Part shown: in pieces, positions 14,483-28,456 of the stretch
Layout of the letters: every line of letters begins with the position of its first letter
How positions within the stretch are numbered: the first letter of the stretch is position 1
Assembly: GCA_030688735.1 (NCBI GenBank)
Contig: JAUYJC010000092.1
Span: forward strand, 1 to 36,281
DNA length: 36,281 nt
Origin: Deltaproteobacteria bacterium
GTDB lineage: Bacteria; Desulfobacterota; Binatia; UBA9968
Reading direction: 5' to 3'
The notes under the pieces: generated by a model
What the model was told of the DNA's origin: nothing
Seen by the model: only the letters and a program-made list of their open reading frames with translations
Database searches by the model: none
Translations under genes and position numbers: made by a program

Positions 14483-15895
14483 CTATCTGCCGCCGAGTAG
14501 CGATAGCGCTACCGATGGCAACTGGTTGGCTTGCGCCAAAACCGCAACACCGGCCTGGATCAGGATCTGGCTCCTGGTTAGCTCAGCAGTCTCCAATGCC
14601 ACATCGGCGTCCTGGATCCGCGAACGAGCGGCGGAGAGGTTCTCAGAGGCCACGCTGAGACTCGATATCGCGGAAGAGAACCGGTTCTGAACCGCGCCGA
14701 TATCGCCCCGAACCCGGTTGAGTTGGCTAAGAGCGAAATCAATAGTCGAGATCGCATCGTTGGCGCCCGAAACGTTCGAGATGCTGAGCCCGTTGATTTG
14801 CTTCGAAGTCACCGTCGTATTGACAACGCCTGTCGTGAAGCCAAGAGCATCGCCTGTGGCAGACGACACTACGGTCAAACTCTTATCGAGATCAACGCTC
14901 AACGTAAACCCGGCGTTGAATGTACGCGAAGCGGTGCTTGCCACCACGTCACCCACACCCACACTGGCCGTGGTTTCCGACAAGGCGATCGTCCCGCCGC
15001 TAGCGCGCGTAAACGTGATACCCACGGAATTGGTCGCGGCGACGACGCCGGTCTGGTTGGTGAAACCATTGACCGTAGCGATAAAAGTCGAATTCGCGTC
15101 GGCATTGCCGGTGCTGAGAGATATAGTAACGCTATTCATGGTCAGCGTCTGCGTGGCGCCGGCCGTTGTCAGCGCGACAAATCCGGAATCGACAACAACT
15201 GTCTGGTTATTCTTTATCGCCGTTCCCTTGGTATTGCCCGACTCGTTGTTGATCGCGTTGATGACACCTTCGATGCCATCTTGCGCGCCGATCGTCACCG
15301 AGAGACCGTTGACGGTAAGGGTGGAGGAGCTCGTCAGGCCGGCCAATGCCGTGCTGCTCACCGCGGCGCCCTGAAGGGTCTTGGCGCCAAGGTCGGCCGT
15401 GTTCACGCTGCTTATGGAAATAGTCACGGTTTCGTAGGCGTTGGCGCCGACCTGAAACTGCGCGTTGCTAAAAGTGCCGTCGAGCAACTTTCTGTTGTTG
15501 AACTGCACCGTGCTCGCCAACCGGTCCAACTCAGCCAGAATGTTGCTCACCTCGGCGTTCAAGGATGAGCGGTCGCTGGAGCTGTTGGAGTCGTTGGCCG
15601 ATTGAATCGCCAACTCACGAGCCCGCTGGAGCAGGTTCGAGACTTCGTTCAGCGATCCGTCCGCCGTTTGGAAGGCCGACACGCCGTCATTGGCGTTTCT
15701 TACCGCCTGATTGAGACCTCGGATCTGCGCGGTCAACCGATCCGATATCGCCATACCAGCGGCATCATCGACGGCGCCGTTAATACGGAGACCCGTCGAG
15801 AGCCGTTGAATCGACCTCTCCAACCCTCCCTGCGCGCGCGTCAAGTTGCGCTGGGCCGTGAGGGCCGAGATGTTAGTGTTGATAATAAGAGCCAT
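14483..15895 (-). CDS. fliC: Flagellin
   Basis: The filament subunit, 470 aa. The conserved D0/D1 ends are complete. The N-terminal part has MALIINTNISALTAQRNL, RLSTGLRINGAVDDAAGMAI and an ANDGVSAFQTADGSLNEV segment. The C-terminal part has LSQLNRVRGDIGAVQNRF and, at the very end, LAQANQLPSVALSLLGGR. The central region (about 165-385) is variable and very rich in Ser/Thr/Ala, offering many potential O-glycosylation sites, in keeping with the large glycosylation operon directly upstream. It has its own sigma-28-type promoter and a structured leader with GGA motifs. The AGGGAGG ribosome binding site lies 7 bases before the ATG. It is the only flagellin in the window. Confidence 0.97.
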   Translation of the reverse strand: MALIINTNISALTAQRNLTRAQGGLERSIQRLSTGLRINGAVDDAAGMAISDRLTAQIRGLNQAVRNANDGVSAFQTADGSLNEVSNLLQRARELAIQSANDSNSSSDRSSLNAEVSNILAELDRLASTVQFNNRKLLDGTFSNAQFQVGANAYETVTISISSVNTADLGAKTLQGAAVSSTALAGLTSSSTLTVNGLSVTIGAQDGIEGVINAINNESGNTKGTAIKNNQTVVVDSGFVALTTAGATQTLTMNSVTISLSTGNADANSTFIATVNGFTNQTGVVAATNSVGITFTRASGGTIALSETTASVGVGDVVASTASRTFNAGFTLSVDLDKSLTVVSSATGDALGFTTGVVNTTVTSKQINGLSISNVSGANDAISTIDFALSQLNRVRGDIGAVQNRFSSAISSLSVASENLSAARSRIQDADVALETAELTRSQILIQAGVAVLAQANQLPSVALSLLGGR

Positions 15896-16129: not shown

Positions 16130-18241
16130 CTATGAAACACCCGCAGGGGCAGAGAGAACCACCTTCCCCGCTCCGACTGCCACCCGACCAGCCAGTTCCC
16201 GGTATAAACGGCTAAGCGCGTCGTGAGTTAATCCGTCCTCTTTAAGGTAACGTTCATCATCTTGCCACAGCGAGCCTGTCCATCTTGAATAGAAGTAAAT
16301 CCGGCTGGACCGATCTTGCTCTGGCTCAGGCTGCCAACTGGCGACCTGGCGGGTCATTGCGCTACGAGGAGTATAGAGAACTCTCAAACCCGCCTGCTTC
16401 ACAGCCAGACAAAGATCCACGTCCTCAAAACGATTGCGTAAAGCGGGGTTGAATCCCCCCAGGCGGCAAAACAGCTCACGAGAGATCAGAAAAGGGACTT
16501 CCAGCGCTTTGAACTCTCGTTGTCTTAGGGCGCCGGAAAACTCGCGCGGCAGCATGCGGTAAATTGAAAAGGGTCTCTGGTTGACATCAAAAGCTAGGCC
16601 GATGTGCCAGAGCAAGCCATTCGGGTTTAGAACTTGCCCGCCGACGACGCCAAAGTCGGATTCTTTTTCGGCAACATCGAGCCATCCTTCCAACCAGCCC
16701 TGTTCTGGAACCAGACCCGGTTTTAAGAAAACCAGATATTTGCCCCTGGCTTCCTTCACCGCCTCGTTACAAGCAGCGCCGTAATCCCAATCGGGCTTCC
16801 CGATAAGAATCCTCACGTCCCCGCCCAGCGATGCGAGTATCCCCTTTGTCTCCTGACCCATCGCGCAATCGACGATCAGCACTTCGTAAAGCTCCGGGGC
16901 CGAACGGGTTGAGATCGCTTCCAGTGTGGCCAGCAGAGCTTCCGGCGCCACGTCATCGACCGGAAGAACGATGGAACAAGGCACGCTGATCCGACCGGAT
17001 GACGCCAGTTGCGTATTTGGCCCGGCGCTCCGCGCCGCGAGCGACTCCGCAACCAGATCCACGATTCGTTCCATGGTTTTCCCATCCCGGTAGGCAAAAT
17101 TGCGGTTGAGGTAGCGTTCACCGTTTGCCGCTGTTTCCGCGGACAAACCACGGGAAAGGATCGTTTCGATCTTTTCGCTCATGTCCTCGAAGCCCATGGC
17201 CTGCTCAGCCACGCCCTGCAGCGTATAAGAATAGGGCTGATCGGGAAGGCGAACCTCGATCAACGGCTTGCCAAAAACCAGGGCCTCCAACCCGGTGGTC
17301 GAGTTGCCCACTGTAACGCAAACCTCGCTCGCGCCGATCAACGCGTAAGTGTCGACGCCGTCAACCGATAGGACTAATGGATTGTCCTTAAGATTTTCCA
17401 GGGCCCGGTCGACAATCTCCTTGCCAGTGGCGGGATGCCATTTAAGAACCGCTATGATGTCCCCGCGTTCTCTCATCCAACGAAGAAAAGGCTGAGCTTC
17501 GAACGAGCGGTAGTGCGAGTGCGACATCAAGAAGAGTATGATTTTCTTTTCGGGCGCGATGCCCAGAGCGGAGCGCGTGCGGTGCACTACGGCTGGGTCC
17601 ATGAATTCTTTCTTTGCGTCCCATATATGCGTGTTCCCAAGCGGATAGATTCTGCCGTCGCTGCAACCCGCCTTGAGCAAGATCTCGCGGCATTCTTGGC
17701 CCCAAACTATACAAGCGGTCGAGTAGTCGGTATGGAAGCGGTAGTAGTGAATGTCGGCGTAATACAGCCCCTCCTGCAGTGTAAAATAGGGAATCCTGTG
17801 GACATGGGAAATATAACCCAGAATTTTTCCCCACGGATTGAGCTCGTGCAGCGCAAACAACAAGTCCGGCTTTTCGACCTCCAACATTTGCTTCAGGCAA
17901 TAGAAGTTCTCCACCGCCGCTCGAATCACTTTGTCGTGGATAACCATAGGGACCGACTGGAGGGCGCGGTTGCTGAGCATCTTATCCTGGAGCACTGGCC
18001 GCAGTTCGCGCATGGCCGCCGCGACGCAATCCGCCGTATCCGCTGTCGCGTAATCGAGGACGTGACGATACGGCAAATTGGCTTGATTGAGCGTAATCTC
18101 AAACGCCCCCTCAGCGGCCGCGGTAAAATAAACAACGTCCATGCCCTGCTGAGCCAACGCCTCCATGATTGGAACAAGGAAGCGGTTATGGTGTGGCAGC
18201 GCGATAAAACAGAGAACTTTTTTCCCTGATAAACTACTCAT
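16130..18241 (-). CDS. Two-domain glycosyltransferase (GT-B-like plus GT2)
   Basis: A 703-aa protein fusing two transferase-type domains. Residues about 5-400 form a GT-B-like fold reminiscent of CDP-glycerol glycerophosphotransferases or UDP-GlcNAc 2-epimerase folds (VLCFIALPHHNRFLVPIMEAL; VTVGNSTTGLEALVFGKPLIEV as the nucleotide-sugar loop). Residues about 420-650 are a family 2 glycosyltransferase (SIVLPVDDVAPEALLATLEA; YGAACNEAVKEARGKYLVFL; RFEDVDLCLAVKQAG). There is no signal peptide, so it probably acts in the cytosol on flagellin before export or on a carrier lipid. It is the last gene of the glycosylation operon, 234 bp upstream of fliC, and follows the 457-aa gene by 8 bp. A flagellin glycosyltransferase role is plausible from position. 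Donor and acceptor are unknown. Confidence 0.75.
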   Translation of the reverse strand: MSSLSGKKVLCFIALPHHNRFLVPIMEALAQQGMDVVYFTAAAEGAFEITLNQANLPYRHVLDYATADTADCVAAAMRELRPVLQDKMLSNRALQSVPMVIHDKVIRAAVENFYCLKQMLEVEKPDLLFALHELNPWGKILGYISHVHRIPYFTLQEGLYYADIHYYRFHTDYSTACIVWGQECREILLKAGCSDGRIYPLGNTHIWDAKKEFMDPAVVHRTRSALGIAPEKKIILFLMSHSHYRSFEAQPFLRWMRERGDIIAVLKWHPATGKEIVDRALENLKDNPLVLSVDGVDTYALIGASEVCVTVGNSTTGLEALVFGKPLIEVRLPDQPYSYTLQGVAEQAMGFEDMSEKIETILSRGLSAETAANGERYLNRNFAYRDGKTMERIVDLVAESLAARSAGPNTQLASSGRISVPCSIVLPVDDVAPEALLATLEAISTRSAPELYEVLIVDCAMGQETKGILASLGGDVRILIGKPDWDYGAACNEAVKEARGKYLVFLKPGLVPEQGWLEGWLDVAEKESDFGVVGGQVLNPNGLLWHIGLAFDVNQRPFSIYRMLPREFSGALRQREFKALEVPFLISRELFCRLGGFNPALRNRFEDVDLCLAVKQAGLRVLYTPRSAMTRQVASWQPEPEQDRSSRIYFYSRWTGSLWQDDERYLKEDGLTHDALSRLYRELAGRVAVGAGKVVLSAPAGVS

Positions 18242-18249
18242 GTGATCTC

Positions 18250-19623
18250 CTAGAGTAAATCCGTTATGCCAAGTGTGACCAAGTCCACATTTTCACTGAT
18301 GGAATCTTTGAGATCTGTCACGGGTGATTCCTCCCGCAGCGCGGACTTAGCCGTATCATGAACGAGTGCCTCTGAAATGCGAGCCAATCGAGCACGCGTC
18401 AGCCAACCCTTTTCGTTCCAACAGTGGATGAGCTGCGGAATTTTTTCCGGCCTGGGTTCCCAATAAGAAAACTCGCCCCGGAACCCTTCCTGTCCCATGG
18501 CTTGGCAGACGATCGTGGGTTTCCGGCAAAGCGAAGCCCGCTCGGTGGTCGTGCCAGCGAAGGGGGCAACGACGAGGTCCGCGAGTTGGAGCAGCAAGCC
18601 GACCCCGATCCGTTCGTCGATGACGACCCGATGCAGGCGGCGAATTTCCTTTCCATAGGTTTGCAGGACGATTTCGCGCTCCGGGTATTGTCGCCGCATC
18701 GTGCGCGGGTCGACGCGAATGACCACGGTCACTGGGATCTTGACCTGGGCCAATGCCTCGAGGATCTTTCGAGTTTCCCAAAGAAAGGCAACGTGATGGG
18801 GGATGAGAATGACAAACTCGTCCCTGGCGAGGTTCAGCATCTCCCGCATTTTCGTCTCACGCTCTATATAGGCCTCGGTGTACTCATCCTGACCCGGCCA
18901 CAGACAATAGCTCTCTTCCCACCTCAGCACGGATACCTGGTGGGGCCGCGCCAGCCCTTCGCGAACCAGGAATTCCTTGGACCATTCCGTTTTGACAGCA
19001 TAATGATCGGCTGGAAGGTGACTCAACGTGTATTTGTTGCCCAAAGGGCTCACTTCCAATGCGACGACAGGGATGCCCATTCGCCGCGCCTCGGAAACCA
19101 TCCACATGTAGAGGCCGCAGGCTGCCCGCGTATTGTTATCGACGGCCATGAGGGGAACGATCACCGCCTCTCCCTTTAAAGAATCCGTCGGTTGGGCGCC
19201 GAACAGTTGCAGCGAACTGAGGAAATCATCCATAGCCAACACCTTCCACAGAGGAAGCGTGCTCCCCGGAATATCGATGTTGGCAGTTTCTCGAATCATC
19301 TCGTCTGTTGTACGGAGTCGTTCCTCTACCGTCACCCCAGGGGACTCAATGTTTACGAATTGGACGTCCAATGGAAATTTTTTGCCCCCCTGTAGCGTCT
19401 CCTGATCGTGGGTCACGACCTTGACATTCCACCCGCTCTGGACGCCGATCCGCGCCGCCAAGCGCAAGATCTTACCTTCGGTATAGCCGTAGTCCGCGTC
19501 GCCGACGGCAAACAGAACCGTCGGTCGCTTTCCCGTCAATTGAGCCCCTGATGCCGAACCCGCTTGTTCTACCAATCTTTCGACAACGGTCTCGTGCCGC
19601 TGTTTCCTGTGTTTTTTGCCCAT
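18250..19623 (-). CDS. Glycosyltransferase-like protein of the flagellar glycosylation operon
   Basis: A 457-aa protein I cannot assign to a named family. After a basic N-terminus (MGKKHRKQRHE) there is a Rossmann-like start (TVLFAVGDADYGYTEGKILRLAARIG). The C-terminal half resembles a GT-B nucleotide-sugar domain: EFVILIPHHVAFLWETRKILEAL, then LADLVVAPFAGTTTERASLCRKPTIVC, equivalent to the donor-binding loop of UDP-GlcNAc epimerase and GT-B enzymes. No membrane segment is seen. It starts 19 bp after the fused nucleotidyltransferase-aminotransferase gene and ends 8 bp before the 703-aa transferase, so all three should be made together. It most likely transfers or modifies a sugar for flagellin. 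An epimerase-like function cannot be excluded. Confidence 0.6.
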   Translation of the reverse strand: MGKKHRKQRHETVVERLVEQAGSASGAQLTGKRPTVLFAVGDADYGYTEGKILRLAARIGVQSGWNVKVVTHDQETLQGGKKFPLDVQFVNIESPGVTVEERLRTTDEMIRETANIDIPGSTLPLWKVLAMDDFLSSLQLFGAQPTDSLKGEAVIVPLMAVDNNTRAACGLYMWMVSEARRMGIPVVALEVSPLGNKYTLSHLPADHYAVKTEWSKEFLVREGLARPHQVSVLRWEESYCLWPGQDEYTEAYIERETKMREMLNLARDEFVILIPHHVAFLWETRKILEALAQVKIPVTVVIRVDPRTMRRQYPEREIVLQTYGKEIRRLHRVVIDERIGVGLLLQLADLVVAPFAGTTTERASLCRKPTIVCQAMGQEGFRGEFSYWEPRPEKIPQLIHCWNEKGWLTRARLARISEALVHDTAKSALREESPVTDLKDSISENVDLVTLGITDLL

Positions 19624-19642: not shown

Positions 19643-21703
19643 TTAGGCTCGACGAAAAACCGGCTGCACCGGTTCGCCTTCAAGTTTTTCTCTAACTGTT
19701 CCGTGGCGGATGGCATCGGCGAGAATCTCCATTGCCGCGTTATAAACCCTGAGCGTCGTATCGATATCCGCCGGGCTGTGGCTAAAACAGGTATTTTGCA
19801 CGCCGGAAAAGAGGATGCCGCGTTTCAAGCACTCCTGCATAAAAAGGCTTTTCATCTCGAGCGACTCCCGCCCTTGGGCGTCCTTGAACATGACCACGGT
19901 GTGCGGCGGCAAGCCGGCGCACTGTGTGTAGTTCGCGACCCCGTGCTCCCGCGCCAAAACGTGATAGCCGTCCTTCAGCCGCTGTCCTTGTTCCCATAAG
20001 TGGGCCACAACATTTTTTTCGCGCATCTCTTCGAGAGTCGCTTTGGCTGCGGCGAGTGAAATCGCTTCGCCGCCGAAGGTAAATGAAAAAAACACCTCGT
20101 CGAAAAGCGCCATGATTTCTTTTCTTCCGACGATGGCGGAGATCGGAAGACCGTTGCCCATCGCCTTGCCGACGCAGGCGAGATCGGGGGTCACGCCGAA
20201 ATACTCCTGGGCACCGCCCAAGGCCACGCGAAAGCCGGTAACCACCTCGTCGAAGACCAACAGCGCGCCTTCCCGTTGCGCCAGCTTCTGAACTTCCTGA
20301 AGAAACTGATCCCGAGGCTCCTCAACACCGATGGGTTCCATGATCACCGCGGCGATCTGAGCGGGATGTTCGGCGAAGAGCCGCTTGAGACTCTCTAGAT
20401 GGTTGTATTCGAAGGTCAGGGTCAAAGCTTGCACCGCCTGGGGCACACCGAGCCGGCGCGTCGTGGTGCCGATGTACCAGTCCTGCCAGCCGTGGTAGCC
20501 GCAACACGCGATGAGATCGCGTCCAGTATACGCGCGGGCCACTCGCACCGCGGCAGAGGTAACGTCGGAACCGTTCTTGCCGAAACGGACCATCTCCGCG
20601 CAAGGGATAATTTCGCTGAGAAGCTCAGCCACCTCCACCTCCAACGGATGCGGCAACGAAAACGCGCTGCCCTCTTGTAACTGCCGTTGGACGGCCTCTG
20701 TCACCGCCGGATAATTGTGCCCCAGAATTACGGGTCCGATCCCCATCGGATAATCGATGTATTCGTTCCCGTCCACATCCCACACATGGCTTCCTTGACC
20801 GCGCGCGAGAAAAACCGGCGCCACGCCTTGGACAAATTGCGTGGGCCCCTTGCTGAAAGTCTGCGTGCAAGAGGGAATCAATCGTTCGGCCCTTGCCTTG
20901 AGCTCGTGAGATCGTGTCAATACTTGCCGCCTGGGCGGTATGGCTGAATCGGTGACCAGCGATTTGTAGTGTCCTTCGTTGCAAGTCCTGCCGGCATTGA
21001 TTTGATACAAATCCGGTTCCTCCTCCTGCAGACGAACAACATCGCGATAGCCAAAAACCCCGCAGCTCCCCAAACGCGCGTAGACAGCGCGCGCAAACTC
21101 CAGATCAGACGGCTCGTCTACGGTCCAGCGCAGATTTCGTTTCGAAAGATCGATCTCATTCTCGACGTTGCGCACTTGAAAGAGACCTGACGTCTTCAAA
21201 TAAGGAGTCACGTGTTCCCGCTCGGCGGGTCGCGCCGCTTGTCGCCAGGCCGACTCCAAAGCAGCGAAAGAAAACACTTCGGTGTCCAGTCCGTCGGGAT
21301 AGGTATAACGAAATGTGTTGGTCGCGTAATCACACTCTTCTGCGAGAAAGACAGCGACGACCCGATCGATGACTTGCGGGTCGATCAGGGGGCAATCGCC
21401 GGTAACGCGCACGACGGTATCTGCCGCGCTCTCCCTGGCCGCTTGATAGTAACGATCCAGCACGTCCGTTTCGCTGCCACGAAAACATGCTATTTCATGG
21501 GCTCGGCAAAACTCTTCAACCGGGTCGTCCGCTCGGGCGGTCGAGGTCGCAATGACAACCCGGCCCACTGTTGATGCTCGACGCACGCGACCAACGATGT
21601 GCCAGAGCATGGGTCGTCCCGCGATATCCGCCAAGACTTTGCCCGGCAGTCGAGTCGAACCCATGCGGGCTTGAATGATGGCAACTACGTTCGGCCACCT
21701 CAT
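19643..21703 (-). CDS. Fusion: SpsF-type nucleotidyltransferase + glutamate-1-semialdehyde aminomutase-like aminotransferase
   Basis: A 686-aa fusion. Residues 1-225 are an SpsF/COG1861-type cytidylyltransferase-like domain (VVAIIQARMGSTRLPGK, VVRVTGDCPLIDP, WTVDEPSDLEFA), a group related to CMP-sugar synthetases. After a linker, residues about 270-686 are a PLP-dependent class III aminotransferase closest in look to HemL (GKNGSDVTSAAVRVARAYTG; FDEVVTGFR at 484-492; VGKAMGNGLP with the PLP lysine near 513). Its ATG overlaps the stop of the upstream oxidoreductase (ATGA). In a flagellar glycosylation operon the aminotransferase half more likely aminates a sugar than makes tetrapyrrole precursors. 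The transferase half would activate a sugar or nonulosonate. Order and lengths of both halves look complete, so this is a real fusion rather than a lost stop. Confidence 0.85.
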   Translation of the reverse strand: MRWPNVVAIIQARMGSTRLPGKVLADIAGRPMLWHIVGRVRRASTVGRVVIATSTARADDPVEEFCRAHEIACFRGSETDVLDRYYQAARESAADTVVRVTGDCPLIDPQVIDRVVAVFLAEECDYATNTFRYTYPDGLDTEVFSFAALESAWRQAARPAEREHVTPYLKTSGLFQVRNVENEIDLSKRNLRWTVDEPSDLEFARAVYARLGSCGVFGYRDVVRLQEEEPDLYQINAGRTCNEGHYKSLVTDSAIPPRRQVLTRSHELKARAERLIPSCTQTFSKGPTQFVQGVAPVFLARGQGSHVWDVDGNEYIDYPMGIGPVILGHNYPAVTEAVQRQLQEGSAFSLPHPLEVEVAELLSEIIPCAEMVRFGKNGSDVTSAAVRVARAYTGRDLIACCGYHGWQDWYIGTTTRRLGVPQAVQALTLTFEYNHLESLKRLFAEHPAQIAAVIMEPIGVEEPRDQFLQEVQKLAQREGALLVFDEVVTGFRVALGGAQEYFGVTPDLACVGKAMGNGLPISAIVGRKEIMALFDEVFFSFTFGGEAISLAAAKATLEEMREKNVVAHLWEQGQRLKDGYHVLAREHGVANYTQCAGLPPHTVVMFKDAQGRESLEMKSLFMQECLKRGILFSGVQNTCFSHSPADIDTTLRVYNAAMEILADAIRHGTVREKLEGEPVQPVFRRA

Positions 21704-22728
21704 CCGGCGCCTCTAAGTTCTATCCAGTGTTGTTTGGCTGCCGAATGCTTGGCGGCAAGTGCAACTTTCAGGACGCGAGCTGCCTCGAACACATTCAGTG
21801 CCGGGGGTTCGCTTCCCGCCAGGCACTTGAGAAAGTGCTTCATTTCGTCGACATACATCTCGTTGGGCTCCCAGCCCGGCGGATTCGTCAGCGAGTGCCA
21901 GATCTTGTCCCTTGCCAGATACCAACGGACCGTGCCGGCCGTGTAATCCCAATGAATCGTCCCCTCCTCGCCGATAATTTGGCAGGTCCGGCTATAAGCG
22001 CGCTGGACATAGTCGAGGTGGATCTCGCCCACTGCGCCGTTCTCAAACCGCAGCAGCATTGCAGCGACATCCTCTGTATCGATTTCAAGCCGGCTGCATT
22101 TTCCTGCCAGGCAGGTGACAACGGCCACCTCGCCGAGCAGCCAGCGAATGTAGTCAATCTCGTGGATCGCATCGAGAATCACTCCGCCGCCAAGCTCTTT
22201 TCGCGCGCTGTAGCCTTGGCGATAGTCCTCCCGGGGGTGCCAATCGGGAAGATAATGGCCGACTTCGACTCTGGCGGCGATGATACGTCCCACAGCCTGC
22301 TCATCGAGAAGTCTTTTTATGGCAACCAGGCCGGGATGGAAGCGCATGTTACATCCCACCAGGGTCACCAACTCCTGTTGGCGCACCATCTCGAGTAGAT
22401 CCTCGACGTTGTCTAACCGATCGGATAACGGCTTTTCGACAAACAGATGACAGCCCCGCCGGGCGGCCTCCAGACCCAAAGAGACATGAAGAGAAGTCGG
22501 CAGCGCGATGATGACAACATCCGGCTTGCGCTCCCAACCCTGCTCAAGATTCTCGACAGCATCCACGCCGAATTCGCAAGCCAGCTGGTTGCGTCGCTCT
22601 GGTGAAGCGTCGAAAACCGCGATCTCTCGCGCGCCCAGGCTGAGCAGGTTGCGCGCGTGGCGCCGTCCAATAGAACCGCACCCGACCACCAAGAAACTTG
22701 GGAATATCTTTCCGACCGGATTACCCAT
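21700..22728 (-). CDS. Gfo/Idh/MocA-family NAD(P)-dependent oxidoreductase
   Basis: A 342-aa sugar dehydrogenase-type enzyme. The N-terminal Rossmann fold has a clear dinucleotide loop (FLVVGCGSIGRRHARNL). The family's EKP motif is in HLFVEKPLSDRLDNV, and the C-terminal domain has GGGVILDAIHEIDYIRWLLGE with the catalytic-type D..H. The track's start at 22809 adds 27 residues that overlap the methyltransferase. The ATG at 22728 overlaps that gene's stop by 8 bp (ATGGGTAA) with GGGA before it, and is preferred. It probably oxidises or reduces a nucleotide-linked or free sugar in the flagellar glycan pathway, perhaps creating the keto group used by the downstream aminotransferase fusion. The specific substrate is inference. 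Confidence 0.87.
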   Translation of the reverse strand: MGNPVGKIFPSFLVVGCGSIGRRHARNLLSLGAREIAVFDASPERRNQLACEFGVDAVENLEQGWERKPDVVIIALPTSLHVSLGLEAARRGCHLFVEKPLSDRLDNVEDLLEMVRQQELVTLVGCNMRFHPGLVAIKRLLDEQAVGRIIAARVEVGHYLPDWHPREDYRQGYSARKELGGGVILDAIHEIDYIRWLLGEVAVVTCLAGKCSRLEIDTEDVAAMLLRFENGAVGEIHLDYVQRAYSRTCQIIGEEGTIHWDYTAGTVRWYLARDKIWHSLTNPPGWEPNEMYVDEMKHFLKCLAGSEPPALNVFEAARVLKVALAAKHSAAKQHWIELRGAG

Positions 22729-23407
22729 GATTCCCGTTGATTTCAGAGCTGATGTAATGACTTTGGATTTCCTTGCGCAGGAGCCACGTTCCGATTCTTT
22801 CCCCTTCACTCACTTCCGCGTCCGGCTTCTTGGAGGCGTGGTGCGCGGTCATGAGGCAAACGGGATGATAAAGCCCCGATGATAGAAACACCTCCGCATA
22901 GTTTTGTTTGTAGGTTTGCACACTACCCGTCGGCAAATGGTGATACGGCACCTGAACATAATTCGAGGGATAAAAATCTCCGATTATGAGGAAGCCGCCG
23001 TCATGCAGCAACCGGTCAATCTCTGCCACTGTCCGCAGCAGATTGAGACGATCGATCCAGTGAAAGACAAAGTTGACGATAACGATATCGAACGTTTCCT
23101 GCACCGGAACCGAGCTCGCTGTTCCACGGACGAAAGTCACGAGTGGAAACCGCGATTTGCCGTCCTCCACGGCCTCTTCTGATAATTCGACGGCAACCAC
23201 CCGGGCGCCAAAACGCCGTTGAATTGCGGCCAAGCGAAACCCATTGGCCGCGCCGATTTCAAGCGCGCATCGAGGCCGCAACTCGTAGAATTCCATGAGC
23301 TTCAACGGCATATCGTCGGCGGGATTAAAGGTCTGAAGCGCGCCACGATTGCGTTCAAACCAGCGGTCTCCCTCCGATCTTGCGAAAATATTATCCTGGG
23401 CTTCCAT
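22721..23407 (-). CDS. Class I SAM-dependent methyltransferase
   Basis: A 228-aa methyltransferase with motif I at residues 48-57 (CALEIGAANG), an acidic strand-2 end (VVAVELSEEAV) and motif IV-like FDIVIVNFVFHWID. The opening DNIFARSEGDRWFERNR resembles methyltransferases often found in bacterial nonulosonate and flagellar glycan clusters. It overlaps pseI by 17 bp and the oxidoreductase by 8 bp, so it is embedded in the operon. It probably adds a methyl group to a pseudaminic acid derivative or another flagellar sugar. N- versus O-methylation and the true acceptor cannot be read from the sequence. No membrane segment is seen. Confidence 0.8.
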   Translation of the reverse strand: MEAQDNIFARSEGDRWFERNRGALQTFNPADDMPLKLMEFYELRPRCALEIGAANGFRLAAIQRRFGARVVAVELSEEAVEDGKSRFPLVTFVRGTASSVPVQETFDIVIVNFVFHWIDRLNLLRTVAEIDRLLHDGGFLIIGDFYPSNYVQVPYHHLPTGSVQTYKQNYAEVFLSSGLYHPVCLMTAHHASKKPDAEVSEGERIGTWLLRKEIQSHYISSEINGNHG

Positions 23408-24494
23408 TCAGCCCCTTCTGCGCAAAACCCGATGGCACCGCGTTTCCCTGTCTAACCATTTCCCAAACCAACGGTGTGCCGCGCAGGATGTCGTGTGCCG
23501 CGCAACAACCCAAAACTTTGTCCAGGTAGCGAGGGTGCAACCCGTCCGCGGGACGAATCGAGCGAACATTGCGCCGCGTAAGAACTTCGCCCGCCTTCAC
23601 ATCCTCCACAATAAACAGAGAGCGGCGAAAGCCTCGGCTTTTTTCTTCCGCCGGGCTAAGACCGTAATGCACCTCCCCTAGCGCGCTTTCCGCCATGCGC
23701 ACGCCGTCGACCATGGCTTTGAACTCGTGCGGTTCCAACGAAAAGGCACTGTCAGGCCCGGTGGATTCGCGAGACAATGTGAAGTGTTTTTCAATGATAC
23801 AGGCGCCGAGCGACACGGCAGCAACAGCGACCGCCGAGCCTAAGGTGTGATCGGACAGACCCACGGGCACATCAAACGCGCACGCCAAGTGGGGAATCGT
23901 GCGCAAGTTCATTTCCTCCGGTGGTGCCGGATAAGCACTCGTGCATTTTAGCAACGCCAGTTGTTCACCACCGGCAGCGTGGATCGTCTGGACCAGCTCA
24001 TCCATCTCCGCCAGGGTCGCCATGCCGGTGGACGCGATGATCGGCTTTCCCGTGCGGGCGACTCGGCGCAGCAGCGCAATGTTGCAATTTTCGAAGGATG
24101 CAATCTTGTGCGCCGGCACACCCATCGCTTCCAGAAAGTCCACCGCGCTGTCATCGAAGGGAGTCGAGAAAAGATCCAGCCCCACTTCATCTGCGACCCT
24201 TTTCAATTTCGGCCGCCACTCCCACGGCGTGAACGCCTCTTTATAAAGTTCATACAGATTACGGCCGTCCCAGAGCGTTCCCTGAATTCGGAAACATTCG
24301 CTGTCGCAATCGATGGTCAGAGTATCCGGCGTGTAAGTTTGTAGTTTGACCGCGTCCGCTCCGCAGACTTTGGCTGCTTTGACGAGATCCACGGCTTGAT
24401 CAAAGTTCTGTCCGTGATTCGCCGACATCTCGGCGATGATATAGACAGGACAATCCGGTCCGATCCTTCGACCGTTGATTTCAATGAAGGACAT
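23391..24494 (-). CDS. pseI: Pseudaminic acid synthase PseI
   Basis: PseI condenses 6-deoxy-AltdiNAc with phosphoenolpyruvate to give pseudaminic acid. The 367-aa protein has the NeuB-family TIM barrel (YIIAEMSANHGQNFDQAVDLV; DAVKLQTYTPDT; FSTPFDDSAVDFLE; IIEKHFTLSRESTGPDSAFS) and a C-terminal SAF (antifreeze-like) domain (RRSLFIVEDVKAGEVLTRRNV). The 'PDTLTID' and 'DSAFSLEP' wording favours PseI over NeuB or LegI. Its ATG overlaps the pseH stop by 14 bp, with GGAGAG as ribosome binding site inside pseH. The metal- and substrate-binding histidines appear intact. Length is slightly above the family's usual 340-350 aa because of the C-terminal tail. Confidence 0.93.
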   Translation of the reverse strand: MSFIEINGRRIGPDCPVYIIAEMSANHGQNFDQAVDLVKAAKVCGADAVKLQTYTPDTLTIDCDSECFRIQGTLWDGRNLYELYKEAFTPWEWRPKLKRVADEVGLDLFSTPFDDSAVDFLEAMGVPAHKIASFENCNIALLRRVARTGKPIIASTGMATLAEMDELVQTIHAAGGEQLALLKCTSAYPAPPEEMNLRTIPHLACAFDVPVGLSDHTLGSAVAVAAVSLGACIIEKHFTLSRESTGPDSAFSLEPHEFKAMVDGVRMAESALGEVHYGLSPAEEKSRGFRRSLFIVEDVKAGEVLTRRNVRSIRPADGLHPRYLDKVLGCCAAHDILRGTPLVWEMVRQGNAVPSGFAQKGLNGSPG

Positions 24495-25005
24495 TGCCGG
24501 ACTCTCCGTTGGACTCGGGGCGACAGGCTCGCCGGAAAATCAAGCAGCCGTGACCCGCGATCTCCCTCTGCTCCGCGAGTTCGAAACCCGCCTTCACGAA
24601 AGCGTTGATGGACCCAAGGTTTTCTTCGAAAGTAACCCCCTGTCTGCGCCGTACGCCGAGTTCTCGGCCGGCCAAGTCCGCCGACAAGCAAAGCAGCTTC
24701 GTTCCGAGATTCCTGCGCCGGGAGTCTGGCGCAACCGAGAAACTTATTTGGGCCGTGCTCGCATCCGTGCGGTCGTAACGAATCTGACCGACGGGCACCC
24801 GGTCAAGCTCCAGAATCCACAGCCGAGTGTCGGGCGAGGAAAGCCGGGCCGCGAACCAGGCTTCATGCGTCGCCCACGGAATCGGTTCGGGATTGAACGA
24901 ATGGCGACGGGTTACCGGGTCATTGGCCCACTGCCACAAACAGTAAGCGTCGTCTTTGTTGGCGGGACGAATCTGCACGTCGCTGCTGTTTATGCTATTG
25001 TACAT
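24481..25005 (-). CDS. pseH: N-acetyltransferase PseH (GNAT family)
   Basis: PseH acetylates the 4-amino group of UDP-4-amino-4,6-dideoxy-AltNAc, the third step to pseudaminic acid. The GNAT fold is visible: IRPANKDDAYCLWQWANDP at the N-terminus, a strand-4 region (VGQIRYDRTDASTAQISFSV), and the acetyl-CoA loop in PDSRRRNLGTKLL, followed by ENLGSINAFVKAGFE. The ATG at 25005 (MYNSINSSDVQ) is chosen because the domain begins right after it and the longer track start overlaps pseG with unrelated-looking sequence. It lies 41 bp after the pseG stop and overlaps pseI by 14 bp. About 174 aa, normal for the family. Position between pseG and pseI supports the assignment. Confidence 0.85.
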   Translation of the reverse strand: MYNSINSSDVQIRPANKDDAYCLWQWANDPVTRRHSFNPEPIPWATHEAWFAARLSSPDTRLWILELDRVPVGQIRYDRTDASTAQISFSVAPDSRRRNLGTKLLCLSADLAGRELGVRRRQGVTFEENLGSINAFVKAGFELAEQREIAGHGCLIFRRACRPESNGESGNVLH

Positions 25006-25046
25006 GACGGTTCCATGCCTAACTTGTCGGTAAAATGGAGCCAGGG

Positions 25047-26114
25047 TCAGGCGGCCCTCCTGCACGAGTCCTCGAAGAGGGCCTGCGCCACTCGCTCCGC
25101 GCCCCACCCGTCCACCAAAGCTCTACCCTGCTCGCTCATTCGTAAACACCATGAAAAGTCATGTTGGAGAACATTGACCGCGGCGGCGAGCCGTTCGACG
25201 GAAACGTCATCATCCCAGCCGAGGTTGTGAACTACTTCGATCGCATCCAGCTCCTCGGCGATGCCCCTTTGGTTCTCGGCCATGATCACGATCAGCGCCG
25301 GCAGGCCGAGACAGGCAAGCTCCCAGCAGGTCGTGCCACCGGCGGACACCGCCAGGTCGGCCCACGCCATCAACTCGGCCATATCAGAGACCCGGCTTAG
25401 GAGTTGGATCTGCGGCGCTAGCGTGTCGGCTCGCTCTCTGAGCTCCGGCAGATGCGGGTTGGCCGGCCCCACCACGACCCGGACCTCCAGGCCCGCAGTG
25501 TCCAGTTGAGCCAACGCGTCGATAACCCGCGCGGTGAAATTATTCGGATCGCTGCCCCCTAGCGTCACGAGAATCTTACGCGCCAGCTCCGGCACGTCGC
25601 GAAAGCCACGGCGCCAGTGCGCGAACTCAGGCCGCAGCAGCGCGTAGTGCGGCCCAAAAAGCCGCGTGGTTTGGGGATCGCACCGATAGCTCAGCGCGGC
25701 GGCGCCGAGATTCTGATTGAGCAGAATATCGGCGCAGTAGCGGTCGAGATGGGCGGTGTCATCGATAACCAGTAGCGGATGGCCGGCGCCTCTTAGCGCC
25801 TGCTGTTGCGCCAAACTGAAGTCATAACCGTCGAGCGCCAACCAGGCGGCCTCCCGCCTCGACAGTTGGGCAAGCGTGTTCTCGATGTCGGCCTCCACGG
25901 AATCGCCCGGCGCTAGAGAAATAAGCTCGGCGCCGGTGGATGAGATGTGCTCGCGCAGGGCCGCGCTATCGCAACGGCTGACAAAAACGGGGGCGCCGCC
26001 GCGCGCTCGCCAGGCCTGCGCCAGCGCCAAACAGCGCATGACGTGGCCGGTGCCGCGGCGCGCATCCGCGTCAGCGCGTAGCAGCAACGGCGGCAGATCG
26101 CGTGTCGATCGCAT
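25047..26114 (-). CDS. pseG: UDP-2,4-diacetamido-2,4,6-trideoxy-beta-L-altropyranose hydrolase PseG
   Basis: PseG removes UDP to release the free sugar used by PseI. The 355-aa protein has a GT-B/MurG-like fold: the N-terminal LLLRADADARRGTGHVMRCLALAQAW carries the conserved GxGH(V/I)xR motif with its catalytic histidine. The C-terminal half has LVTLGGSDPNNFTARVIDAL and SAGGTTCWELACLGLPAL, the UDP-binding region. The start overlaps the pseC end by 44 bp in another frame; there is no later in-frame methionine before the GxGH motif, so this start is likely. It is part of the contiguous pseB-C-G-H-I block. Confidence 0.92.
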   Translation of the reverse strand: MRSTRDLPPLLLRADADARRGTGHVMRCLALAQAWRARGGAPVFVSRCDSAALREHISSTGAELISLAPGDSVEADIENTLAQLSRREAAWLALDGYDFSLAQQQALRGAGHPLLVIDDTAHLDRYCADILLNQNLGAAALSYRCDPQTTRLFGPHYALLRPEFAHWRRGFRDVPELARKILVTLGGSDPNNFTARVIDALAQLDTAGLEVRVVVGPANPHLPELRERADTLAPQIQLLSRVSDMAELMAWADLAVSAGGTTCWELACLGLPALIVIMAENQRGIAEELDAIEVVHNLGWDDDVSVERLAAAVNVLQHDFSWCLRMSEQGRALVDGWGAERVAQALFEDSCRRAA

Positions 26115-27297
26115 AATGGCTGACTACCTTGCACAGGGCTTGAATCACATCTTCGACATCCTGGTCGCTCATGGCCGGAAACATCGGCAAGGACAAAATG
26201 ACCTCGTAGGCCGCTTCCGCCCTGGGACAGAGTCCGGGTCCGGTGCCGAAGCGCTCCCGATAAAAGCGGTGCAGGTACACCGGCAGATAATGGACGTTGA
26301 CACCGATCCCCTCGGCGCGCAGCGCGGCAAAGACCCGCCCGCGATCCGTGCTCAAGAAATCCGGCTCCAAGCGGACGACGTAGAGATGGTAGGCGGATTC
26401 CACGCCGGGACGAACCGTCACGGCGCGGACTCCGGCCATAGGGGAGAAGACTTTGTCGTAGCTCCGGGCGATGGCGCGGCGGCGGGCGACAAATTCCGAA
26501 ACCTTGGACAATTGGCTCAGACCGAGCGCGCACTGCAAGTCGCTCAGCCGGTAATTGTAACCGAGATCAACCATGTCGTAGAGCCAAGAGCCTTGTTTTT
26601 CGCGTTGGCAATGGTCGGAGGTGACTCCGTGGTTGCGAAAACTGCGCATTCGATACGCCGAATCAAAGCTTTCCGTCGTGATCATGCCGCCTTCGCCGGT
26701 GGTCATGGCTTTCACCGGATGGAGACTGAAGACATTCAAATCTGCCAGTGTTCCCACCGGGCGTCCCTTGTAGCTCCCGCCGAGCGAGTGGCAGGCATCG
26801 GCGACCAACGCCAGATCATGGCGCCCGGTGATTTCCCGCAGGGCATCGTAGTCACAGGGTTTGCCGGCGTAGTCCACGGCGATGACGGCGCGGGTGCGCG
26901 GCGTGGTTTTGGCTTTGACATCTTTGGGATCGATCAGCAGCGTGCGGGAATCAACGTCGGCGAAAACCGGTGTCGCGCCCTGATAGACGACGCAATTGGC
27001 GCTGGCGGCAAAGGTGAGCGCGGGAACGATCACTTCGTCGCCGAGGCCCACGCCGAGCGCGTGCATCGCCGCATGAAGCGCCGCGGTTCCGCTGCTCACG
27101 GCCACCGCTTCGCCGGCGCCCAGCGCCCGGGCGAAAGCCCGTTCGAATTCGCGGACCTTGGGGCCGGTAGTCAGCCAGTCCGATCGCAAGACTTCAACCA
27201 CCGACTGGATGTCGTGTTCGTCGATGGTCTGGCGGCCGTAAGGCAAGAGGGTTTTTCGAACCGGCGCGCCGCCGTCGATGGCCAATGCGCTATTCAT
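26071..27297 (-). CDS. pseC: UDP-4-amino-4,6-dideoxy-N-acetyl-beta-L-altrosamine transaminase PseC
   Basis: PseC is a PLP aminotransferase of the DegT/DnrJ/EryC1 family that aminates C4 of the PseB product. Visible hallmarks are LLPYGRQTIDEHDIQSVVEVL at the start, VSSGTAALHAAMHALG (cofactor phosphate site), LVADACHSLGGSYKGRPVG and the PLP lysine in FSLHPVKAMTTGEGGM. The track's start at 27426 lies inside pseB. The ATG at 27297 (MNSALAIDGGAPVRK) overlaps the pseB stop by 8 bp (ATGAATAG) and fits the family's usual N-terminus, giving about 408 aa. The C-terminal 15-20 residues run into the pseG overlap. It is part of the pse operon. Confidence 0.94.
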   Translation of the reverse strand: MNSALAIDGGAPVRKTLLPYGRQTIDEHDIQSVVEVLRSDWLTTGPKVREFERAFARALGAGEAVAVSSGTAALHAAMHALGVGLGDEVIVPALTFAASANCVVYQGATPVFADVDSRTLLIDPKDVKAKTTPRTRAVIAVDYAGKPCDYDALREITGRHDLALVADACHSLGGSYKGRPVGTLADLNVFSLHPVKAMTTGEGGMITTESFDSAYRMRSFRNHGVTSDHCQREKQGSWLYDMVDLGYNYRLSDLQCALGLSQLSKVSEFVARRRAIARSYDKVFSPMAGVRAVTVRPGVESAYHLYVVRLEPDFLSTDRGRVFAALRAEGIGVNVHYLPVYLHRFYRERFGTGPGLCPRAEAAYEVILSLPMFPAMSDQDVEDVIQALCKVVSHYAIDTRSAAVAATR

Positions 27298-28291
27298 GAC
27301 TTTCCACCAGACGTTGCAGCTCTTCCACCGAGAGCCAGCGGGAGTTGTTGTCGCTGCTGTAGCGAAACCCCTCCGGGCAGCGCTTGCCGCCGTTGCAGCC
27401 GGCGCGGCGGTTGCCGTTTGCGGCATGAGGACGAATGACGAAATAGTCGTCGTACTCCACCGTGTTGCGCGCGTCGTCTTCCGGCACCATGGTCTCGTGC
27501 AGTTTTTCGCCGGGCCGAACGCCGATGACGTCGAGGCGGCACTCCGGCGCGATGGCCCGCGCCAGGTCGACGATGTTCATGCTCGGAATCTTGGGCACGA
27601 AGACCTCGCCGCCGCGCATACGCTGGAGGCAATCCAAAACGAAGCCGACCGCCTGCTCGAGGGTGATCCAGAAGCGGGTCATCTTCGGATCGGTGACCGG
27701 CAGCACGCCGGTGGAGCGCAGTTGCTGAAAAAATGGAATGACGCTGCCGCGGCTCCCCATGACGTTGCCGTAGCGCACCACGCTGAACTTGGTGCCGTGG
27801 TGGCCGGAGTACCCGTTGGCGGCGACGAAGAGCTTGTCGGAACAAAGCTTGGTGGCGCCGTAGAGATTGATCGGATTGGCCGCCTTGTCCGTGCTCAGGG
27901 CGATCACCCGGTTTACGTTGCGGTCGATGGCTGCGTCGATGATGTTGGCGGCCCCCAGCACGTTGGTCTTGATGACTTCGATGGGATTGTATTCCGCCGT
28001 CGGGACCTGCTTGAGCGCGGCGGCGTGAATGACGATGTCGACGCCGTCCATGGCGCGGTAAAGGCGGTCGCGGTCGCGCACGTCGCCGATGAAGTAGCGC
28101 ATGCACGCGTAGCGCTGCTCGTTGAAGCGCTGGCCCATGTCGAATTGCTTGAGCTCGTCGCGGCTGAAGATGATCAACTTTTTGGGCGCGTGGTTCTTTA
28201 GGACCGTTTCGACGAACTGTTTTCCGAAGGAACCCGTACCGCCGGTCACCAAGACGACCTTGTCCTTGAGCACATCGTTGGGCATTTTCAT
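27290..28291 (-). CDS. pseB: UDP-N-acetylglucosamine 4,6-dehydratase (inverting) PseB
   Basis: PseB starts the pseudaminic acid pathway by dehydrating and epimerising UDP-GlcNAc. The NAD(P)-binding loop (VVLVTGGTGSFGKQF), the SDK/YxxxK-type active site (ALSTDKAANPINLYGATKL) and the C-terminal NSRWLSVEEL are all typical of the extended short-chain dehydrogenase group containing FlaA1. The track's start at 28447 adds about 50 unlikely residues. The ATG at 28291 follows GAGGAT and matches the family length (333 aa); a second ATG two codons later is also possible. It is the first gene of the glycosylation operon and lies about 155 nt downstream of a predicted sigma-54 start site. Confidence 0.95.
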   Translation of the reverse strand: MKMPNDVLKDKVVLVTGGTGSFGKQFVETVLKNHAPKKLIIFSRDELKQFDMGQRFNEQRYACMRYFIGDVRDRDRLYRAMDGVDIVIHAAALKQVPTAEYNPIEVIKTNVLGAANIIDAAIDRNVNRVIALSTDKAANPINLYGATKLCSDKLFVAANGYSGHHGTKFSVVRYGNVMGSRGSVIPFFQQLRSTGVLPVTDPKMTRFWITLEQAVGFVLDCLQRMRGGEVFVPKIPSMNIVDLARAIAPECRLDVIGVRPGEKLHETMVPEDDARNTVEYDDYFVIRPHAANGNRRAGCNGGKRCPEGFRYSSDNNSRWLSVEELQRLVESHE

Positions 28292-28456
28292 CGGCTTATC
28301 CTCGTCGTCACGCTTCCCCCTCAGCCGGCAAATCCGCACGGCAGCAAGCAAGACTCCTCCCGGTCGGACGGTGCCGTCAGGTTTTTGACGACCGGTCTGG
28401 AAATTGACGCGCAAATCGGCATAGACCGTCGATTTACGAACTCGCATCGCAGGAAA

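Follow-up and report, generated by a model that had tools for sequence, protein, structure and literature searches.

How does a bacterium activate pseudaminic acid (Pse) when its biosynthetic operon has no PseF, and what would an aminotransferase be doing on the protein that lies in that place? The question is raised by a flagellin glycosylation island in a draft deltaproteobacterial genome (Desulfobacterota, Binatia; assembly GCA_030688735.1), of which we analyzed a 36,281-nucleotide stretch of contig JAUYJC010000092.1, hereafter the window. Positions 19643 to 21703 of its minus strand form a single ORF of 686 amino acids with an ATG start and an uninterrupted frame, while the plus strand of the interval has stops throughout. 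A reading made from the sequence alone had described the product as an SpsF domain fused to a class III aminotransferase with its PLP lysine, and this description stands: CTP_transf_3 (PF02348) matches residues 7–207 with 125 bits against a Pfam gathering score of 22.6, and Aminotran_3 (PF00202) matches residues 295–636 of the same frame with 182 bits, above the Pfam cut-off. We defined SpsF-type membership by the gathering score, a Q-A-R-x-x-S-x-R-x-P-x-K motif, and acidic metal-site residues, and the N-terminal domain has all of these; its QARMGSTRLPGK motif begins at residue 11, and the metal-site aspartates are D103 and D196/D200. Across 67 fusions, residues Q11, A12, R13, S16, R18, P20, K22, D103, D196, and D200 show at least 95% conservation. 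The C-terminal domain has the class III PLP aminotransferase fold, together with the PLP-binding aspartate (D485) and the Schiff-base lysine (K513), both of which occur in 91/91 SpsF-linked aminotransferases compared. With 39 aligned full-length relatives as input, AlphaFold2 models two domains confidently (pLDDT 90.7, pTM 0.84). Because intact relatives with the same two-domain architecture recur at 44–70% identity in dozens of other genomes, an assembly artifact or chance fusion is excluded. The fusion is a real, well-conserved protein, and it varies a known theme, that of SpsF joined to a second enzyme.

In what genetic setting does the fusion lie? In order of transcription, the island runs PseB, PseC, PseG, a GNAT acyltransferase, PseI, a methyltransferase, a dehydrogenase, the fusion, a 457-residue protein, a 703-residue protein, and flagellin (Table 1). 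PseB, PseC, PseG, and PseI are clustered and exceed their NCBIfam cut-offs, as the sequence-only reading had proposed; the PseH of that list was its weakest assignment, since the gene is a GNAT whose PseH match falls below threshold. The listed starts of PseB and PseC probably precede the real ones, and the true start of the dehydrogenase probably lies downstream of the listed GTG. This dehydrogenase, which the earlier reader had overlooked, adjoins the fusion so closely that its stop and the fusion start share four bases (ATGA).

Table 1. Coordinates and supporting evidence for the island genes of the window, with one triple fusion from another locus (L028)
Feature	Coordinates	Strand	Evidence
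Flagellin FliC, likely acceptor	14483..15895	-	Named from sequence
703-aa protein, candidate NulO transferase	16130..18241	-	N-half BFO_1060/surface-polysaccharide glycosyltransferase-like, C-half GT2
457-aa conserved protein, candidate transferase component	18250..19623	-	No Pfam/NCBIfam match
SpsF-type cytidylyltransferase + class III PLP aminotransferase fusion	19643..21703	-	Domains at residues 7-207 and ~261-670
Gfo/Idh/MocA-family NAD(P) dehydrogenase	21700..22809	-	EKP and D...H motifs by eye
SAM methyltransferase	22721..23407	-	Weak sub-threshold match to TIGR03587 (pseudaminic-acid-associated methylase)
PseI, pseudaminic acid synthase	23391..24494	-	NCBIfam 486 bits, cut-off 340
GNAT acyltransferase, PseH position	24481..25107	-	PseH match 42.4 of 93.1 bits, sub-threshold
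PseG, UDP-sugar hydrolase	25047..26114	-	NCBIfam 238 bits, cut-off 154
PseC, C4 aminotransferase	26071..27426	-	NCBIfam 461 bits, cut-off 424
PseB, 4,6-dehydratase	27290..28447	-	NCBIfam 531 bits, cut-off 408
Triple-fusion example	L028:8960-12046	+	Gfo/Idh/MocA dehydrogenase, SpsF, class III aminotransferase

Two other loci preserve much of this island. The order from PseI through the methyltransferase, dehydrogenase, fusion, 457-residue protein, and 703-residue protein to flagellin is nearly intact in L013, and L065 keeps the methyltransferase, fusion, both proteins that follow it, and flagellin; in both loci, a homologous flagellin comes after the same genes and a counterpart of the methyltransferase is retained. 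The counterpart of the 457-residue protein stands at ~70% in the L013 island and at 38% in that of L065, and a structure prediction from the three sequences reached a pLDDT of 57, too low for interpretation. No Maf-type flagellin glycosyltransferase (PF01973) was found in the whole genome, and the 457-residue and the glycosyltransferase-like 703-residue proteins are candidates for transferring the nonulosonic acid (NulO) to flagellin. The L065 flagellin island (L065:7055-16807) contains PseB and PseI, with no PseC, PseG, PseH, or dehydrogenase in the 22 kb covered. In L013, the closest copy of the island, a formyltransferase gene (L013:222-1055, plus strand) lies 5' of PseI, which suggests an N-formyl group on the NulO of that locus.

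Is PseF encoded elsewhere in the genome? A search with TIGR03584 (cut-off 205.7 bits) returned nothing above the cut-off, the best score being 53.8 bits for KdsB; the fusion itself scored 26.5 bits. Only three CTP_transf_3 matches were found (KdsB, the fusion, and IspD). The searches therefore gave no separate PseF in a draft of 634 contigs that is 90.2% complete and 5.4% contaminated, so the absence is not absolute. The cut-off can be reached, since three genes in the window's phylum pass it: across 198 genomes of that phylum, PseI exceeded its cut-off in 17 and PseF in only 3, all three PseF genes lying near PseI or a PseI-like gene. Comparing these operons, we found the PseF slot filled in four ways: by PseF beside PseI (L102, L112) or a PseI-like gene (L118), with neither SpsF nor a class III aminotransferase; by SpsF alone (L105 and L111, the latter in the order PseB-PseC-SpsF-PseG/H-PseI); by SpsF adjoining the aminotransferase (L104, L107, L110); and by the fusion (the window, L106, L108, L109, L115). 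Among 50 other genomes carrying the aminotransferase, almost all with the fusion or an adjoining SpsF, none had PseF above the cut-off; about 20 had weaker, full-length NeuA/LegF-like genes, some of them possibly in other clusters.

The shared slot is the strongest evidence that the SpsF domain very probably serves as the CMP-NulO synthetase in PseF's stead, as the sequence-only reading had suggested for the fusion. This role agrees with the accepted part of SpsF in the CMP-Leg step of Bacillus subtilis (PMC7439481) and with the proposal that a Vibrio SpsF-reductase fusion replaces an absent NeuA (PMC7371886). It is quite improbable that the domain is instead vestigial, or activates some other sugar, with PseF encoded in sequence missing from the draft: at 90% completeness, the assembly leaves room for such a gene, but the residues of the catalytic motif are conserved, and the 50-genome comparison speaks against it as well.

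Could the C-terminal domain simply be HemL, the glutamate-1-semialdehyde aminomutase (GSAM) of tetrapyrrole synthesis, incidentally fused? Solved GSAM structures are its best Foldseek matches (TM to target 0.84–0.88) and supply its closest PDB sequences, the nearest NCBIfam family bears the GSAM title, and the 90%-complete draft encodes HemA (glutamyl-tRNA reductase, C276) with no recognizable hemL above the cut-off. Yet the fusion scores 290.4 bits against a cut-off of 527.3 for TIGR00713 (HemL/GSAM), and it also misses NF004856 (467.6 of 486 bits). Ten genomes of the window's phylum with this aminotransferase subfamily encode separate true HemLs, which form one clade (99% SH-aLRT) apart from the SpsF-linked enzymes. 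The stretch between YHG and a conserved Asn, which we take to be the GSAM active-site gating loop, has 31 residues in 87/91 SpsF-linked enzymes versus 40 in 10/10 HemLs, and the Asn of the GTLSGNP motif is replaced by Glu or Asp in all 91 (N to E at position 546 of the window fusion). The operon, moreover, is a glycosylation island. On tree, loop and motif, and the TIGR00713 score, we reject HemL identity, and a working HemL is the least probable reading that we weighed; the earlier term "HemL-like" is thus apt for the fold and not for the function. A pseF elsewhere combined with a tetrapyrrole role for the fusion, the outcome that the sequence-only reading had set against itself, is not what we found: no pseF appeared, with the caveat that hemA is present without a recognizable hemL. 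For this hemA-bearing genome (G000), hemL may be encoded in the tenth that the draft lacks; alternatively, the step may be supplied otherwise. Next after GSAM in the structural search ranked transaminases of the omega and D-phenylglycine types, together with the class III enzyme PctV, whose substrate, 3-dehydroshikimate, is a cyclic keto acid. By sequence, the domain also resembles aminoglycoside C-6' aminotransferases. The likeness to these enzymes and to PctV indicates that this branch of class III does use sugar-like carbonyls.

What would supply such a carbonyl? In the 80 loci with enough flanking sequence, an oxidoreductase near the aminotransferase on the same strand was a Gfo/Idh/MocA dehydrogenase in 42 and an aldo/keto reductase in 31; none had both, and 7 had neither, among them L065, whose island in other respects matches that of the window. 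The window has the dehydrogenase, so that its SpsF fusion, like EpaA, is paired with an NAD(P) oxidoreductase gene. Neither family was found in pse/NeuB clusters without the aminotransferase (0/10, a small control set in which some contigs were short). The association extends to the protein itself in the acidobacterial loci L028, L029, L030, L031, L034, L035, and L036, where a single polypeptide of 1028–1056 amino acids combines dehydrogenase, SpsF, and aminotransferase, and a Bacteroidota cluster that we examined has a third family, an SDR, after the aminotransferase. One aminotransferase accompanied by three unrelated oxidoreductase families is the pattern expected of alcohol oxidation followed by transamination.

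Bacteroidota loci resembling L158:7558-14206 (plus strand), among L153–L172, have a conserved cluster without PseB or PseC. It comprises a BFO_1060-like glycosyltransferase, SpsF, the aminotransferase, a PtmA-like SDR, a HAD hydrolase, a short NeuB, and a fatty-acid-hydroxylase-like protein, with a split transketolase pair in some loci; gene families were checked in L158, L167, and L168. Judging by its gene content, this cluster may encode an undescribed keto-sugar-acid pathway.

The best explanation, to which we assign a probability of roughly 0.6, is that the fusion would be a bifunctional CMP-nonulosonic-acid synthetase and sugar aminotransferase, encoded in an island that glycosylates flagellin with a Pse-type sugar. 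The Pse backbone is built by PseB, PseC, the GNAT, PseG, and PseI, and the SpsF domain very probably joins it to CMP; the adjacent Gfo/Idh/MocA enzyme would oxidize one free sugar hydroxyl, and the class III domain would convert the resulting ketone to an amine. The likeliest hydroxyl would be that at C8, giving 8-amino Pse (a 5,7,8-triamino NulO) before or at activation. The methyltransferase might, speculatively, modify the product, and the island glycosyltransferase would then transfer the modified NulO to flagellin. Reading oxidation and transamination from the pairing with oxidoreductases, we consider it probable that the aminotransferase aminates the oxidized position of this same sugar. 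The sequence-only reading had offered a choice between replacement of PseF and the making and activation of a second, aminated sugar; replacement and an aminated sugar both emerge as the likeliest functions, on one pathway and not on a second sugar.

At which carbon would the amine be placed? In the established Pse pathway, the C5 nitrogen comes from GlcNAc and the C7 nitrogen from PseC, and 9-deoxy Pse has free hydroxyls at C4 and C8, C6 closing the ring. With C5 and C7 already supplied, an extra amine would fall on another carbon. A precedent points to C8: EpaA, an SpsF-aldo/keto reductase fusion, and the SDR EpaB convert Pse to 8-epi-Pse, as shown by NMR (PMC12053666), the natural reading being oxidation and reduction at C8. 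If the reductase of EpaA is exchanged for an aminotransferase, 8-amino Pse is the expected product. An 8-amino-3,5,7,8,9-pentadeoxy-manno-nonulosonic acid, tentatively L, is known from the lipopolysaccharide of Flexibacter maritimus (PMC3210612), and the literature searched describes no enzymes for it. By this analogy, we favor C8 tentatively, at slightly less than even odds. A shade less secure is the broader proposal that a Gfo/Idh/MocA dehydrogenase, aldo/keto reductase, or SDR together with SpsF and the class III aminotransferase may constitute an undescribed, widespread module making CMP-8-amino-nonulosonic acids, and thereby a route to the F. maritimus sugar.

The aminotransferase might instead aminate the NulO elsewhere, for example at C4, or replace PseC at C7 in clusters that lack it, an alternative that is unlikely yet the most serious of those weighed here. 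In its favor, L065 and L044/L121 have PseB, PseI, and the aminotransferase without a nearby PseC, and the Bacteroidota clusters pair the aminotransferase subfamily with NeuB in the absence of PseB and PseC. In such loci, either PseC is encoded elsewhere or another position is aminated, and the site of amination by the subfamily may vary from pathway to pathway. PseB, PseC, and PseI accompany the aminotransferase in 44 of 62 long loci and in the window, however, so that the C5 and C7 nitrogens are already provided there, and the SpsF-reductase precedent works at C8. Less probable again is that the substrate is neither ring nor tail but a small acid destined to become an N-acyl (amino-acyl) substituent of Pse. 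Amino-acid-like N-substituents do exist on NulOs (Leg5GluNMe7Ac of Clostridium botulinum, PMC13317340), class III enzymes near GSAM use small amino acids, and some loci (L039) have ATP-grasp genes nearby. Against this, the repeated fusion with a CMP-sugar synthetase and a Gfo/Idh/MocA dehydrogenase suggests a shared sugar substrate, and EpaA, built on the same fusion logic, acts on a sugar.

How does the favored reading, a synthetase and aminotransferase acting on one sugar, compare with known systems? The closest is EpaA/EpaB of Acinetobacter baumannii prophages (PMC12053666), in which CTP_transf_3 is likewise fused to a sugar-modifying enzyme with a paired NAD(P) oxidoreductase; the pair acts on Pse, and the logic of oxidizing and remaking one carbon is common to both. 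EpaA differs in its C-terminal domain, an aldo/keto reductase yielding the 8-epimer rather than an Aminotran_3 domain with a predicted amine as product, and it works beside a normal psaA-F set, whereas PseF is missing from the window's genome. The Vibrio nab cluster (PMC7371886), also a NulO cluster, has SpsF fused to an aldo/keto reductase and not to an aminotransferase. SpsF of B. subtilis (PMC7439481) is of the same cytidylyltransferase family and is needed for Leg at the spore surface, but it stands alone, serves Leg and not Pse, and has no attached aminotransferase. The O-antigen locus of Legionella pneumophila serogroup 6/12 (PMC3694923), also a NulO locus, has a class III aminotransferase gene and a cytidylyltransferase gene that adjoin without being fused, with PseG and an acetyltransferase beside them; one of the pair is annotated as glutamate-1-semialdehyde aminomutase, and the text consulted gives the pair no function. 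The likeness is one of description, and the genes are separate and serve O-antigen rather than flagellin. PseF (TIGR03584) shares operon slot, presumed reaction, and Pfam superfamily with the SpsF domain and differs in sequence. HemL/GSAM shares fold, PLP lysine, and class III architecture with the C-terminal domain, which differs in its fusion to SpsF within a glycan operon, its separate clade, its short gating loop, and its altered motif. KdnA and KdnB of Shewanella pair a dehydrogenase with an aminotransferase to give a keto sugar acid its 8-amino group (Kdo8N); their enzyme families are different, and the sugar is eight-carbon Kdo. The sfm cluster of Shewanella oneidensis was considered as a characterized example and rejected, because its genes differ.

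How widespread is the arrangement? The sequence-only reading took the combination to be unusual in this setting, but our scan found 495 relatives, and fused, adjacent, and triple-fused forms all occur: the arrangement is common in bacteria. About 80 loci examined, from many phyla, lie nearly all in NulO operons; they are closest relatives and thus nonindependent, and L014/L115 share one genome, as do L044/L121. The starred branches of the tree force at least seven switches between fused and separate states, and such repeated fusion or fission indicates that the cytidylyltransferase and aminotransferase activities belong together. Among sampled Bacteroidota, 55 of 396 genomes carry the aminotransferase subfamily. 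In one of them (G424, locus L145), an ORF matching both the PseF and the aldo/keto reductase sets immediately precedes an SpsF-aminotransferase fusion, so that two differently fused cytidylyltransferases adjoin. Among isolates, Desulfatibacillum alkenivorans and Solidesulfovibrio alcoholivorans carry the module. A Halorussus aquaticus plasmid (NZ_CP100401.1:174553-176667) has a match over 99% of the fusion, annotated as an aminotransferase and glycosyltransferase family protein, which places the SpsF/aminotransferase pair in haloarchaea as well. None of 35 phage records covers 80% of the fusion, and the 15 matches listed of these 35 are all to the aminotransferase part. The literature searched, with most subscription journals outside its scope, contains no described SpsF-aminotransferase fusion and no triamino nonulosonic acid by that word.

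The Pse-type sugars that flagella and surface polysaccharides carry influence how bacteria move, how phages bind to them, and how the immune system recognizes them, and the chemical structure of these sugars is often predicted from gene content. Many genomes annotate the module misleadingly, as a glycosyltransferase family protein or a glutamate-1-semialdehyde aminomutase, which invites the mistake of taking these NulO clusters for incomplete, for want of PseF, or for makers of plain Pse. If the favored reading is true, organisms with the module would make NulOs bearing a third amino group, which would add a positive charge or a further site of acylation, and a sugar so far known only from lipopolysaccharide chemistry would gain candidate genes.
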